A DNA stretch of 64,000 nucleotides from Oscillospiraceae bacterium (GTDB lineage: Bacteria; Bacillota; Clostridia; Oscillospirales; Oscillospiraceae), in the NCBI GenBank assembly GCA_902798545.1, contig CADBWQ010000020.1, positions 1 through 64,000 on the forward strand. The letters run 5' to 3'. Made by a program: the position numbers and the translations under genes. Positions 782 through 40,145 of the stretch are shown piece by piece. Positions within the stretch are counted from its first letter, which is position 1. Each line of letters starts with the position of its first letter. The notes below the pieces were generated by a model, which worked only from the letters and a program-made list of their open reading frames with translations, had not been told where the DNA came from and searched no databases.

Positions 782-2278
782 TTAATCAAGGGGCTTCATT
801 GTCGGGAAGAGCAGGACATCGCGGATGGCCGCAGAGTCGGTCAAAAGCATGCACAGACGGTCGATGCCGTATCCAATGCCCCCTGTGGGCGGCATACCGA
901 TCTCCAGCGCGTTCAGGAAGTCCTCATCCGTGGTGTTGGCTTCTTCGTCACCCTTGGCCAGCTGTTCTTCCTGTGCTTTGAAGCGCTCCCGCTGGTCAAT
1001 GGGATCGTTGAGTTCTGAGTAAGCGTTGGCCATCTCCCAGCCATTAATGAAGAGCTCAAAGCGCTCCACGTGCTCCGGGTCATCCGGCTTGCGCTTCGTA
1101 AGCGGGGAGATCTCCACGGGGTGCTCCGTAAGAAAGGTCGGCTGGATCAGATGCTCTTCTACAAATGCGTCAAAAAACAGATTCAGGATGTCCCCTTTCT
1201 GGTGGCGATCCTCGTATTCCACACCCTTTGCCTTTGCAGCGGCTCTCGCTTCTTCCAGTGTGTGGATTTCATGAAAATCTACGCCCGAATATTCTCTGAC
1301 GGCATCCGTCATGGTGATCCGTGCAAATGGCTTTCCGAGATCGATTTCCACCCCATTATAGACTACCGTCGTTGTGCCGAGAACCTCCTGCGCCACATGT
1401 CGGTACAGATTTTCTGTCAGATCCATCATGCCGTGGAAATCCGTGTAGGCCTGATAGAGTTCCATCAGTGTAAACTCCGGATTGTGCTTTGTATCCATAC
1501 CCTCATTGCGGAAAACCCGGCCGATCTCATACACCTTTTCAAGTCCGCCAACGATCAGACGCTTGAGGTACAGTTCCAGCGAAATGCGCAGCTTCAGGTC
1601 CTGATCCAGCGCATTGAAATGCGTAAGGAAGGGTCTTGCCGCGGCGCCGCCGGCATTCTGAACCAGCATGGGCGTCTCGACCTCCAGGAACCCCTGTCCG
1701 TCGAGATATCGCCGGATGCTGCTGATGATGCGTGAGCGCTTGATGAAGGTGTCGCGGACATCCTCATTCATGATGAGGTCGGTATAGCGCTGACGATAAC
1801 GCAGGTCGGTATTCGTCATCCCGTGATACTTCTCGGGCAGCGGGCGAAGGGATTTGGAAAGAAGCTTTACATGCTCAACATGTATGGTGATCTCCCCCGT
1901 CTGGGTCTTGAAAACGTAGCCGCTGACGCCGATGATATCGCCGACATCATACTTACGGAAATCACCGAATTCATCTTCAGTAACCGCGTCCTTGCGGATA
2001 TAGAGCTGGATCTGCCCTTCACGGTCCTGAATATGGCAGAAGATTGCCTTTCCCATGCCGCGTTTGGACATGATTCTGCCCGCTATGGAAACCTGTCGGT
2101 TTTCAAACCCGTCAAAGTCTTCCTTGATTTGAGTGGATGAGGCAGTACGGTCGAAACGGGTCTCCTTGAACGGATCTCTTCCCGCCTCCTGCAGAGCGGT
2201 CAGTTTATCACGGCGGATTTGCAGCAGCTCCGAGAGTTCCTGCTCAGGGGCAGCGATATTTTCTTTTACTTCACTCAT
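782..2278 (-). CDS. lysS: Lysyl-tRNA synthetase, class II
   Basis: This 498-residue cytoplasmic enzyme charges tRNA-Lys. An N-terminal OB-fold anticodon-binding domain (about 60-150) precedes a class II catalytic core. Motif 1 is near 194-205 ([10 protein letters not shown]), motif 2 at 256-270 with FRNEG, and motif 3 near 466-479 with GIGYGIDRL. The length matches typical bacterial LysS. It is the last gene of a leftward run after greA (9-base gap) and is followed by a strong terminator, so it is probably co-transcribed with greA and perhaps with the cell-division genes upstream. Confidence 0.97.
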
Positions 2279-2287
2279 ACAGTACCC

Positions 2288-2782
2288 TCAGACATTCCCT
2301 ACAGAGATGATTTCAATTCTGATTTCGCCGGCGGGAACCGGGATGGTGACTGTATCACCCGCGCGGTGACCGATCAGGCCCTTGCCAACCGGAGAGTCAT
2401 CTGAGATCCTGCCTTCCCGCGGATTTGCTTCCTGAGAACCGACAATCTCATACTTGTCCTCGTAGTCGTCGTCCAGATCCTTTACCACCACGACGCTGCC
2501 GAGTGTGACCGCGTCCTTCGGAAGATTGTGATCAACATTGTCGACGATTTCTGCGTGCTCAATCAGGTCCTTGTATTCCGCAATCCGTGAGTACAGCTTG
2601 CCCTGTTCGGTCTTGGCTTCATCGTACTCACTGTTCTCAGACAGGTCGCCAAAGCTTCTGGCCTCCTTGATCTGTTCAGAGACTTCCTTCTCACGGACGG
2701 TTTCCATGTAGTTGAGTTCTTTCTTGAGCTCGTCGAGGCGTTCCTGACTCATTTTGTAACGGTTGGAATTTGAACTGGCCAT
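2288..2782 (-). CDS. greA: Transcription elongation factor GreA
   Basis: GreA rescues backtracked RNA polymerase by stimulating transcript cleavage. The protein has 164 residues, the usual length, with a long N-terminal coiled coil (about 10-85, containing the ARSFGDLSENSEYDEAK family signature) and a C-terminal FKBP-like domain (about 90-164). It sits between the S41-like gene and lysS; a greA-lysS pair is common in Clostridia. The nine or so residues before the family core are Ser/Asn-rich and probably disordered. Confidence 0.96.
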   Translation of the reverse strand: MASSNSNRYKMSQERLDELKKELNYMETVREKEVSEQIKEARSFGDLSENSEYDEAKTEQGKLYSRIAEYKDLIEHAEIVDNVDHNLPKDAVTLGSVVVVKDLDDDYEDKYEIVGSQEANPREGRISDDSPVGKGLIGHRAGDTVTIPVPAGEIRIEIISVGNV

Positions 2783-2805
2783 TTTCTTTTCTCCTCTGTA
2801 GTTTT

Positions 2806-4053
2806 TTAACTTAAGTATCTGAGTGCTTCCATCAGTTGTGTATCATCTGAAATGCTCGCTGTTCCTTCTTCACCGCCGGTTGTTCCTTCTGTCGTACCGG
2901 TTGCCGAAGCGTCACGGTTAAAGACGATCATATCCGGTACCACACCGCCTGCAGCAGCGATGTCCGTCCCGTTCGGCGAAAGGAGGCTGTGTGTGCTGAG
3001 TCGCAGCGCACTCCCGTCATGCAGTACAATGACTTCCTGGGTTCTGGTATTGCCGGTTGTCGGCTCGCCGATCAGGGTCGCCCATCTGTAGTCCTTCAAT
3101 ACCGCCGCAAACAGCTCCGCCTCGCGGAAGCTTCCACTGTTGATGAGTACCACCATCGGAAGCTCCAGACTCATGCTGTCGGACTGCGTGACACGCTCTG
3201 TTCCGTCCTTGCTAATATCAGAAAAGAGTCTCCCGGCAGGAAGCAGGTAATCCAGAAATGTCGCTGCCTCCGTAGTCAGACCGCCGGAATTATCGCGTAC
3301 ATCGATCACCAGTGAAACCGCTCCCTGACTCAGGAGATATTCCACCGCATCAACACAGGCCTGACCGCTGCCGGCCTCGAAGTTGTGGATCTGAACATAT
3401 CCTGCCCCGGTTTTTTCCAGTCTGTAGGTGATTGCTTCCGCGTTCACGTTTGTTGCATCGATCTCCAGCGGATCCGACATGCCGACAATGCTGAGGTTAA
3501 ACTTGCCGTTCATTCTGGATCGGATCAGCGTGCGCACTTCATCTGTGGAGTAATCCGAGACTTTCTCGCCGTCCACTGCGGTAATCACCATTCCGATGAC
3601 GACACCGGAGCGGGCCGCAGGTGAATCCGGATATACCGTGACGACCTGGAACCCACCGCTGGCGTCTTTCACCAGGCTCATACCGATATCGGCATACTCA
3701 TTTGAGGAAGAGAGCTGATACGTCTTGTATTCGTCATCCGTCAGGAAACTGCTCCAGGCATCTCCGAGTCCGGAGACCATGGCTGTGGCTGCTGAATATC
3801 CCATGCTCTTGCGGTCGACAGGATCAATATACTTTTCATCGATGATATCTTTGATCTCGATATATCGCATTGCCTCTTCATAGTCGTCCTTACCGCCGAC
3901 TTCCCGGATCACCTGATTCCGCGTCAGAATCCGCGCTCCGAAAAGCGATCCCACCACCAGCAGTATTACGAACCAGAGCGGGATGCCAAGGCTGAACAGA
4001 CGGGAAATAAAGATACCGACGCCGCCGAACATTCGGTGGAGAATTCTCCTCAT
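2806..4053 (-). CDS. S41-type (CtpA-like) PDZ protein, probable pseudoprotease
   Basis: This 415-residue protein has one N-terminal membrane anchor (about 20-40), a PDZ domain (about 120-200), an S41 domain (about 205-385) and a Gly/Thr/Glu-rich tail. The S41 fold is clear from DVRDNSGG (251-258), VVLINSGS (301-308) and GGVVPD. The nucleophile position, serine in active relatives, aligns with Arg310. The general-base lysine of the 'GK' motif aligns with Asn335. If the alignment is right, the protein binds rather than cuts. It follows the M23 activator gene by 93 bases containing a hairpin, so a role at the septum with FtsEX is plausible but inferred. Confidence 0.8.
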   Translation of the reverse strand: MRRILHRMFGGVGIFISRLFSLGIPLWFVILLVVGSLFGARILTRNQVIREVGGKDDYEEAMRYIEIKDIIDEKYIDPVDRKSMGYSAATAMVSGLGDAWSSFLTDDEYKTYQLSSSNEYADIGMSLVKDASGGFQVVTVYPDSPAARSGVVIGMVITAVDGEKVSDYSTDEVRTLIRSRMNGKFNLSIVGMSDPLEIDATNVNAEAITYRLEKTGAGYVQIHNFEAGSGQACVDAVEYLLSQGAVSLVIDVRDNSGGLTTEAATFLDYLLPAGRLFSDISKDGTERVTQSDSMSLELPMVVLINSGSFREAELFAAVLKDYRWATLIGEPTTGNTRTQEVIVLHDGSALRLSTHSLLSPNGTDIAAAGGVVPDMIVFNRDASATGTTEGTTGGEEGTASISDDTQLMEALRYLS

Positions 4054-38620: not shown

Positions 38621-38693
38621 CTAAGTTGAAATGCCCTCCACAATCAGATATATCTTTTATGTATCTTTAATCGCATAACACAGGTATTTCCTT

Positions 38694-38721
38694 TTTCTGT
38701 TTCTCTGTGTTATCATACAAT
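38694..38721 (+). promoter_or_regulatory. Candidate promoter of the micro-gene pair
   Basis: TACAAT (38716-38721) is a good -10; TTTCTG (38694-38699) is a weak -35 at 16 bases. The first micro-gene ATG lies 49 bases downstream. Confidence 0.45.
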
Positions 38722-38769
38722 CGTCCTAAGGGAACAGGACAAATAACTCATAGAAAGAAGGCGCTGAAA

Positions 38770-38817
38770 ATGTTGAAGGAGTTCTATGAAAGCTTCTCTC
38801 ACCGCGAGGGCAAATGA
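38770..38817 (+). CDS. Micro-gene 1, 15-residue peptide
   Basis: ATG to TGA encodes MLKEFYESFSHREGK. GAAGG lies 8 bases upstream of the ATG. The peptide is short, charged and amphipathic, with no signal or membrane segment. It differs from micro-gene 2 in one residue (Glu7 to Asp), while codons 2, 12, 13 and 14 differ only synonymously. That pattern suggests selection on the peptide. I know no family for it. Confidence 0.65.
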   Translation: MLKEFYESFSHREGK

Positions 38818-38871
38818 TGGGATTCACCCGAAACCACAACATGAACAAACTACAGAAAGAAGGCGCCGATC

Positions 38872-38919
38872 ATGCTGAAGGAGTTCTATGATAGCTTCTC
38901 TCACAGGGAAGGTAAATAA
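38872..38919 (+). CDS. Micro-gene 2, 15-residue peptide
   Basis: ATG to TAA encodes MLKEFYDSFSHREGK, with the same GAAGG at 8 bases. It ends 11 bases before the hairpin of a terminator, so the two micro-genes appear to fill a dedicated transcript of about 220 bases. An overlapping 16-codon frame (ATG at 38841) lacks a good site and is not favoured. Confidence 0.65.
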   Translation: MLKEFYDSFSHREGK

Positions 38920-38930
38920 GCTTCGTAATT

Positions 38931-38958
38931 GGACCGCTCCGGCGGTCCTTTTCCTTTG
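38931..38958 (+). terminator. Terminator of the micro-gene transcript
   Basis: GGACCGC (38931-38937) pairs with GCGGTCC (38942-38948) and is followed by TTTTCCTTT. Confidence 0.7.
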
Positions 38959-38989: not shown

Positions 38990-39038
38990 AGTGAGATACG
39001 CTCCGAGAATTTCTCTCGGAGCGCATTTTTGTCTCACT
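38990..39038 (+). terminator. Second stem-loop with T-tract
   Basis: CGCTCCGAGA (38999-39008) pairs with TCTCGGAGCG (39014-39023), followed by CATTTTTG. An outer pairing AGTGAGA (38990-38996) with TCTCACT (39032-39038) is also possible. It may be a second terminator or a structured RNA. Confidence 0.55.
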
Positions 39039-39125
39039 ATCTCTTTTCGCGGATTAATAGGTCTCCTCATATTATTTAGCATATTGCATTATCATAACGG
39101 GATGACCTAAGAAAAGCAGAATTAT

Positions 39126-39323
39126 TCACCAGTCATCATCCAGAAGCGCGGAGAGGCCTTCGGCCTCGTCCACCCATGACGGGTCATATTTTGCCTTCTT
39201 CATCGTTGTGCCGCAGGACGGACAAACCTTATACGGCTTTTTGCAGGACGCATCGCAGGCAGAACAGATACACTCATCCGGCCGGAAGAGATGCGTCCGC
39301 TGGATCCAGTGTGCCGATTTCAT
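39126..39323 (-). CDS. Zinc-ribbon small protein, copy A
   Basis: This 65-residue protein begins MKSAHWIQRTHLFRPDE and carries Cys pairs CxC..C (CICSACDASC, 19-28) and CPSC (34-37) that could bind zinc, followed by KKAKYDPSWVDEAEG and a short acidic end. It is nearly identical over 56 residues to the protein at 39849-40028. It lies 53 bases downstream of the TIGR04076 gene. Such ribbons often act in protein or nucleic acid contacts; the role here is unknown. Confidence 0.75.
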   Translation of the reverse strand: MKSAHWIQRTHLFRPDECICSACDASCKKPYKVCPSCGTTMKKAKYDPSWVDEAEGLSALLDDDW

Positions 39324-39376
39324 GCCTTCTCCCCCATTTTCACTCTCAGATCATGCAGGCTCTCCAACTTCATAAT

Positions 39377-39848: not shown

Positions 39849-40028
39849 TTATGTATAGAAACCCTCGGCTTCGTCCACCCAGGAAGAATCATATTTCGCC
39901 TTTTTCATCGTTGTGCCGCAGGATGGACAAACCTTATACGGCTTTTTACAGGACGCATCACAGGCAGAACAGATATACTCATCCGGCCGGAACAGATGCG
40001 TCCGCTGGATCCAGTGTGCCGATTTCAT
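39849..40028 (-). CDS. Zinc-ribbon small protein, copy B
   Basis: This 59-residue protein starts at a TTC-less ATG (40028) and is a paralogue of copy A: residues 1-56 differ only at Cys18 to Tyr and Pro48 to Ser, and the end is FYT instead of the longer acidic tail. All four central cysteines of the ribbon remain, but the first (Cys18) is replaced. The DNA is also nearly identical, which points to a recent segment duplication around the TIGR04076 gene. Confidence 0.75.
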   Translation of the reverse strand: MKSAHWIQRTHLFRPDEYICSACDASCKKPYKVCPSCGTTMKKAKYDSSWVDEAEGFYT

Positions 40029-40145
40029 GCCTTCTCCCCCATCTTTTCTGTTAGACCATTTCTTCTATTCAGAACGATTTATTAGAAGACACCGCTGATA
40101 CAAGTGCCCTGGCCTGGTAGACGCAATCCGGGACGTCTTCTTTCT

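Follow-up and report, generated by a model that had tools for sequence, protein, structure and literature searches.

Tandem micropeptide genes of Oscillospiraceae-type bacteria: codon-level selection and a possible link to nitrogen assimilation

Strong sequence evidence indicates that two 15-codon frames in the genome of an Oscillospiraceae bacterium belong to a real micropeptide family of Oscillospiraceae-type bacteria, which has no Pfam or NCBIfam entry as far as tested. Taken as a whole, the data are best explained by micropeptides that form part of a LysR-driven nitrogen regulon and tune a nitrogen-assimilation protein, a reading to which we assign a probability of about 0.55. The DNA analysed, a stretch of 64,000 nucleotides referred to here as the window, belongs to contig C20 in a 3.03 Mb assembly (G000). 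A literature search found no publication matching the peptide string and, judging by titles and the opening lines of abstracts, none describing this micropeptide family.

The twin micro-genes of the window

Micro-gene 1 starts at ATG 38770, encodes MLKEFYESFSHREGK and ends with the stop codon TGA at 38817, while micro-gene 2 starts at ATG 38872, encodes MLKEFYDSFSHREGK and ends with TAA at 38919. A sequence-only reading of this DNA had described twin 15-codon frames, 102 bases apart from start to start, with GAAGG 8 bases 5' of each ATG, and these coordinates proved correct when re-read. Its count of six differing bases over the 15 codons, five of them silent, and its change of stop codon from TGA to TAA were likewise borne out codon by codon, the differing pairs being TTG/CTG, GAA/GAT (E/D), CGC/AGG, GAG/GAA and GGC/GGT. 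The statement that the sequence outside this unit is unrelated needs one correction, as AGAAAGAAGGCGC, which lies around the ribosome site, precedes both starts, and the repeat unit thus exceeds the open reading frame (ORF). The features of the locus are as follows.

38647..38667, + strand: degenerate operator of LysR type (gatatat-N7-gtatctt) whose centre lies at -66 relative to the predicted start
38684..38689, + strand: GTATTT element near -35, a probable activation half-site (locus alignment)
38706..38716, + strand: extended -10, TGTGTTATCAT, a TGTGYTATNAT-type sequence present in many loci
38723..38740, + strand: predicted transcript start G38723 and 5' hairpin GTCCTAAGGGAACAGGAC, the start being placed from the promoter
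38757..38761, + strand: Shine-Dalgarno GAAGG of micro-gene 1, 8 nt 5' of the ATG
38770..38817, + strand: micro-gene 1, MLKEFYESFSHREGK, stop included (ORF and homologue reading, pN/pS)
38859..38863, + strand: Shine-Dalgarno GAAGG of micro-gene 2, 8 nt 5' of the ATG
38872..38919, + strand: micro-gene 2, MLKEFYDSFSHREGK, stop included (ORF and homologue reading, pN/pS)
38931..38952, + strand: intrinsic terminator with a 7 bp stem and T tail, of which GGACCGCTCCGGCGGTCC-TTTT occupies 38931-38948 (terminator scan)

The terminator begins 11 bases past the stop of micro-gene 2, as had been noted and as the terminator scan recovered, and no gene is joined on. With a promoter and a terminator predicted around it, the pair would form a stand-alone transcript of ~230 nt, in agreement with the proposal that it has a short transcript of its own. 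The -10 box claimed upstream is supported by its conservation among relatives; a generic sigma-70 scan, however, did not return this promoter. On the minus strand of the locus there is one promoter-like site (38916-38888), against 1.2 expected by chance, and Rfam gave no known RNA family at the gathering score. A mobile-element origin was rejected, as no match was found among phages (near mode) or plasmids (distant mode) and the exact pattern returned 0 viral-contig stretches.

Three further observations concern the surrounding DNA. A second terminator-like hairpin of 10 pairs lies at 38999-39023, ~50 bases past the first. A perfect 9-bp inverted repeat, ATAACACAG ... CTGTGTTAT, spans the -35/-10 region (38675-38713) and is partly kept in the second locus of the same genome. 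Two alike short stretches visible in the sequence and its ORF list, at 39120-39330 and ~39860-40080 (-), may represent a duplicated small Cys-rich gene.

Micropeptide family and codon-level selection

Contig C25 of the same genome carries a paralogous locus that has the same promoter and 5' hairpin and whose second peptide is MLKEFYESFSHREGK; its first unit lacks the HREGK end and, like L141 and L042, is a decayed copy. A DNA search of 61 genomes of the window's genus gave strong homologues and many shorter matches, and a micro-ORF scan of the homologue flanks yielded peptides of 15-21 aa, with 1-4 per array. Across the family as a whole the peptides are 15-27 aa long, in arrays usually of 1-4 units, and their forms include MLKE[FY]YESFSHREGK, pairs such as MKKLEKLFEEFYESFSHREG with MKKISELFKEYYRSFSHREGR, and MKKIEKFLEGLYESYLHR. 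Of the 50 units examined, which derive from 28 loci (unit 1 of L005, with a changed C-terminus, and L033 and L042 were omitted), 47 contain the block [FYL][FY]-x-[ST]-[FY], and in the remaining three I replaces S/T. A core with a leading L-x-x was dropped, as only 27 of the 50 units contain it. One unit, in L090, has an ATA start.

The distribution of the family extends beyond the genus. When one genome from each of 84,980 species was scanned for the exact pattern, 22 stretches were recovered, with record labels of Clostridiales, Clostridia, Eubacteriales, Oscillospiraceae, Ruminococcaceae, Lachnospiraceae (two) and Blautia (one), several of which name ruminant animals; one stretch (L087) has no intact ORF. 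A sequence-only model comprising promoter, leader and first ORF matched 27 of the 102 genomes of the genus, the window's genome included, at E<=1e-8, a cut-off fixed post hoc after inspection of the match table. The ORFs are intact in 26 of these 27 and the frame is degenerate in G067. Weak matches (75 of the 102 genomes at E<=0.01) stand outside these counts, and G089 (3e-6), which has a plausible two-motif ORF, was excluded from the strong set. The ORF at this locus (L185), 41 codons long and divergent from lysR, contains two core copies, SEYYRTYS and SEYYKTFQH, an arrangement that a fusion of two micro-genes would produce. In G095 three tandem pairs lie on a single contig. An order-wide search with the model gave E<=1e-5 in 7 of 394 genomes, again including that of the window; micro-ORFs were newly found in G426, G474, G408 and G361, and the matches in G480 and G359 were rejected on inspection. 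Homologous frames thus exist in related genomes, and similar micro-ORFs in other genera of the family. Pfam and NCBIfam returned 0 families at E<=10 for five longer members of 20-21 aa, the 15-18-aa forms lying below the minimum length of the tool.

Among 22 distinct 15-codon units, codons 2-15 gave a pS of 0.702 and a pN of 0.039, and thus a pN/pS of 0.056 (0.022-0.107 in a bootstrap over codons). Pairwise differences at the three codon positions number 120/206/1227, so that 1227 of 1553 fall at the third, and the homologous frames keep the start, the Shine-Dalgarno sequence and the stop. The six codons 5' of the ATG do not share this pattern (pS 0.284, pN 0.251), nor is silent change in excess in frames +1 and +2 of the 15-codon units. 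It is therefore strongly supported, from the comparison of sequences, that the 15-codon frames are under purifying selection as peptides. This agrees with the earlier proposal that selection acts on a peptide too small for gene finders to call, and the comparison of substitution ratios across homologues that had been suggested as a check points the same way, the frames of relatives differing overwhelmingly at silent sites. The second locus in the genome, the homologues elsewhere and the low pN/pS together argue that the twin frames are not a chance observation. A longer ORF starting 5' of the ATG was considered, since the preceding codons resemble the MKK start of longer peptides. These codons, however, vary non-synonymously, and thus the 15-aa start stands. 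Among the longer types pN/pS is 0.36 for units of 63 nt, which are of mixed forms, 0.27 for those of 66 nt and 0.16 for those of 57 nt; these types look to be under weaker selection or to comprise mixed groups.

The codon-level signal also bears on an alternative view, in which the RNA acts first and foremost, as a small RNA of regulatory or dual function, and the peptide comes second. Consistent with such a role are the short terminated transcript with its 5' hairpin and, in genus g42, a hairpin close to the 3' end, with CCATCC as its loop, that, by eye, persists where no micro-ORF is visible. The excess of third-position differences is, however, the strongest signal in the window's type; in addition, the fold of the single sequence does not stand out from those of shuffled versions (z -1.01) and the spacers between units diverge. 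We consider a primary role of the RNA quite unlikely, and conserved RNA structure, for which the comparison comprised only three sequences, was rejected as the main feature.

The properties of the peptides are relevant to a further proposal, that they are leaderless membrane-active or bacteriocin-like products, tandem amphipathic helices secreted under nitrogen limitation. Tandem copies and the MKK starts of the longer types fit this view, as does the hydrophobic moment, which in 7 of 12 representative peptides exceeds that of shuffles at p<0.05. Against it, the 15-aa form has a net charge of 0, a mean hydrophobicity of -0.25 and no significant hydrophobic moment, and no recurrent exporter or immunity gene is conspicuous on inspection of the neighbour lists. 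A secreted membrane-active peptide is thus very improbable. The same 15-aa form, which is not of the hydrophobic, membrane-spanning kind, is consistent with the earlier statement that the peptide is unlike type I membrane toxins.

Promoter, candidate regulon and gene neighbourhoods

In the aligned loci GTATTT near -35 is followed by a TGTGYTATNAT-like -10 and then by GTCC, taken as +1. The TATTT of the -35 element (columns 18-22) is invariant in the 22 aligned loci and the G nearly so; L082, which is outside this alignment, has GTAGTT. Upstream of asnB in the window's genome, TGTGCTATCAT is similar to the extended -10. The micropeptide loci share a promoter box in the form of the inverted repeat ATCATAY-N7-RTATGAT. 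LysR-type operators sit near -65 relative to the transcript start. Among 26 loci (L031 and L095 omitted) the box has its best position at -66 in 22 and at -65 in L032; in L036 and L092 this position is -170, and for the window it is -70. Across 25 loci (L031, L095 and L078 omitted) the -66 offset averages 11.08 of 14 half-site matches, compared with 8.04 at the next best offset and 4.41 (sd 1.36) on average for the offsets between -150 and -21, and the ATA...TAT core is intact at -66 in 20 of the 25. These statistics are partly circular as the consensus was drawn by eye from the same loci. The boxes 5' of nitrogen genes are independent of the loci from which the consensus was built. A spacing of 7 yields 33 boxes with <=2 mismatches in 390.6 kb, whereas seven other spacings together yield 28; the 390.6 kb consists of partly overlapping loci such that some sites are double-counted in both figures. 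The box is of the recognition-site type described for LysR regulators in excerpts of PMC8407307. The family promoter, with a T-N11-A type inverted repeat at a fixed position with respect to the predicted start, thus has an apparent LysR-type geometry. At the window itself the -66 site has, by hand count, mismatches at 5 of the 14 half-site positions and retains only the ATAT-N7-GTAT core, and the best box 21-mer, at -70, has 4 mismatches. As its own -66 box keeps the core only and the GSIII site of its genome is degenerate, we infer LysR control of the window locus by homology with the rest of the family.

One LysR ortholog group is represented in 49 of the 102 genomes of the genus (50 had been listed, G123 was dropped at 39% identity, and the count includes fragments of LysR at contig ends). 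The ortholog is present in 26 of the 27 strong-match genomes and in 23 of the 75 others (Fisher p 1.2e-9, uncorrected for kinship), or in 25/26 and 24/76 when G067 is left out (p 3.5e-9, kinship again uncorrected). The association is not complete: G064 has a micro locus and no LysR ortholog at the cut-off, and 23 of the 49 LysR-bearing genomes have no strong model match. In the window's genome lysR lies on contig C10 and the micro-genes on C20 and C25.

A box scan of 14 chosen genomes returned 46 sites, against 14 for the reversed pattern; in four of these genomes (G013, G033, G066 and G102) the reversed control was as frequent as the box or more so. At <=1 mismatch there were 16 sites, 12 of which lie at asnB, gltB, GSIII/guaA, lysR or a micro locus, the other four (two in G012, one each in G069 and G102) adjoining genes not tied to nitrogen. 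The window's genome has five sites at <=2 mismatches, at asnB (0), gltB (1) and purA (2), with the remaining two away from nitrogen genes, and its GSIII has a degenerate box only. In relatives boxes are found 5' of GSIII, amtB, guaA, pyrG, asnB and lysR; further sites lie at asnB/amtB, GSIII and pyrG in G117 and at GSIII, gltB and purA in G095. A second, noisier search in 14 genomes of six genera gave 65 forward and 35 control sites, and in G426, G787, G432 and G688 the sole box with 0-1 mismatch is at lysR, a result that gives no support to co-regulation of nitrogen genes in these four genomes. The presence of the same operator 5' of nitrogen-assimilation genes, both in the window's genome and in relatives, leads us to infer a LysR-type nitrogen-assimilation regulon that includes the micropeptide genes.

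In other species nitrogen genes are also neighbours of the arrays. Micro-ORFs adjoin GSIII in L036, L037 and L092; amtB with a PII domain in L035, L041, L078, L096 and L136; asnB in L035, L036, L078, L082 and L096; guaA/glmS in L039 and L040; and pyrG in L092. They adjoin lysR in L035, L036, L037, L038, L082, L092, L096 and further loci. Other arrays, that of the window included, have no nitrogen-gene or lysR neighbour. Ten representative neighbour proteins were named by NCBIfam, five of them also by Pfam; GSIII was named by its Pfam domains and the remaining neighbours by resemblance. The PII part was verified by reading in L035 and L041 and by Pfam in L091, where an ammonium transporter is fused to a C-terminal PII domain (1756-3438 (+); Pfam Ammonium_transp and P-II).

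The position of the micro-ORFs upstream of asnB, two in the same direction in each of the five asnB loci, with a T-box-like motif read by eye between them and the gene, would suit leader peptides that attenuate downstream genes. Several features argue against this role: 48 of the 50 units have no Asn or Gln codon, stem-T sequences (by eye) follow the last ORF in other 15-aa-type loci, a T-box reached the gathering score in 0 of 10 sources, and the one T-box that scored below it, in the asnB leader of the window's genome, is accompanied by no visible micro-ORF. The window's frames likewise contain no Asn or Gln codons, and because a terminator follows the second ORF and no gene is joined on, the paired leader peptides suggested earlier fit this locus poorly. 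We regard attenuation as highly improbable. The asnB leader itself, in the window's genome (L144:9361-9601 (-), contig C10), combines a perfect LysR-type box with the T-box-like element, which scores E 2.2e-14, below the Rfam gathering score, and has, by eye, AAC (Asn) as its specifier.

A LysR search of 400 genomes of the family gave matches in 27. Micro-ORFs are divergent from lysR in 13 of these, and in G756 they lie downstream of one lysR and of glmS. In the other 13 no micro-ORF lies beside lysR; these include the window's genome, with its copies on other contigs, and G706, in which the contig ends there. The divergent gene can then be GSIII, pyrG or a T-box-like leader (read by resemblance). 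The regulator can thus do without a neighbouring peptide gene, which represents an accessory output.

Three observations were made in g42. A hairpin-like stretch, TTTGTGTGATCCATCCATCAC...CAAAG with a CCATCC loop, was seen by eye 3' of the micro-ORFs (L249, L250, L241 and L242). A similar stretch, a possible regulatory RNA, persists upstream of lysR in L200 and L223, where no micro-ORF is visible. In L249 and L250 (G426 and G787) an extra conserved small ORF, MEQN(V/I)L(R/K)HVVGA..GNCQTS, comes first after the promoter, before the micropeptides.

Proposed function and comparison with known systems

In the proposed mechanism a LysR-type regulator, bound at -66, would activate transcription from the extended -10 promoter, beginning at G38723. 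Judging from conserved DNA, this regulator would also control asnB, gltB and purA and, in relatives, GSIII, amtB-PII, guaA and pyrG. By reporting the nitrogen or glutamine state it would cause the short RNA to be made, whose repeated ORFs would provide many copies of a short helix. This helix may bind a nitrogen-assimilation protein, for which GSIII or the AmtB-PII fusion would be our guess, and tune its activity along the lines of cyanobacterial IF7/IF17 or archaeal sP26. A broader formulation is an autonomous module that joins a LysR-type nitrogen sensor to micropeptides as its output arm: the tandem peptides of 15-27 aa, made from a short RNA of their own, would relay the signal to enzymes or transporters. 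The only strong operator in four genomes of g42 is the one in the lysR intergenic region, and in two of these genomes the peptides are the only visible output. We put forward the autonomous module tentatively, with the balance of judgement somewhat against it. If it exists, its peptides would, to our knowledge, be shorter than any other conserved class of peptide effectors of nitrogen assimilation in this bacterial phylum.

An alternative explanation is that the micropeptides are ligands of LysR itself, or cell-cell signals that are exported, re-imported and read by it, by analogy with Rgg-SHP. Across genera lysR is found repeatedly next to the micro-ORFs, in many cases in divergent orientation, and the sole 0-1-mismatch box of G426 and G787 is in the lysR/micro intergenic region. 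LysR genes, however, ordinarily diverge from their main target. LysR orthologs without an adjoining micro-ORF indicate that no neighbouring peptide ligand is needed, and lysR is apart from the micro-genes in the window's genome. A ligand or signal is thus unlikely. Among the roles that the sequence-only reading had suggested, a regulatory micropeptide fits best and signalling is the remaining rival; the link to a LysR-type regulator and nitrogen-assimilation genes was beyond the reach of that reading.

Although genes of 15 codons escape ordinary annotation, codon-level selection is clear in this family, which is found repeatedly in bacteria of the rumen and gut. Should the peptides modulate ammonia assimilation, they would act on a step central to nitrogen turnover in the rumen, and a literature search found nothing on the regulation of ammonia assimilation in these uncultured rumen bacteria. 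The shared operator defines a concrete, testable regulon, and the tandem arrays are a marker for further such genes.

Regulators of glutamate synthesis and nitrogen assimilation within the LysR family include GltC and NAC, and the models of both score on the LysR ortholog. These scores, 126.5 bits against a cut-off of 350 for GltC and 110.9 against 309 for NAC, are far below the curated cut-offs, and the ortholog was therefore rejected as an equivalog of either; no NCBIfam cut-off was reached among the best 25 of 45 matched models. In Rgg-SHP pairs very short ORFs lie beside a regulator gene. The micropeptide loci resemble these in having tiny ORFs next to a regulator, but the regulator family differs, the 15-aa micropeptide is hydrophilic, and LysR also occurs without an adjoining peptide.

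Closer in proposed function are IF7/IF17 of cyanobacteria, which are described in excerpts of PMC7760959 as small proteins under transcriptional nitrogen control that bind and adjust a nitrogen enzyme. The likeness lies in nitrogen-controlled small proteins acting on a nitrogen enzyme, binding to glutamine synthetase (GS) being a proposal in the case of the micropeptides. As described there, IF7 and IF17 are 65 and 149 aa long and NtcA-controlled, whereas the micropeptides are of 15-27 aa, often tandem and under apparent LysR control. In Methanosarcina mazei the 23-aa peptide sP26 is reported to interact with GS, although stable binding was not observed in a cryo-EM study, according to excerpts of PMC11957540 and PMC9249791. 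sP26 is archaeal and the micropeptides are bacterial, and the likeness is one of description. Both systems are cited as precedents for small proteins acting on GS and not as relatives. Small proteins that tune nitrogen metabolism are thus known; what is new here is a tandem family of micropeptides of 15-27 aa, for which a function of this kind is proposed.
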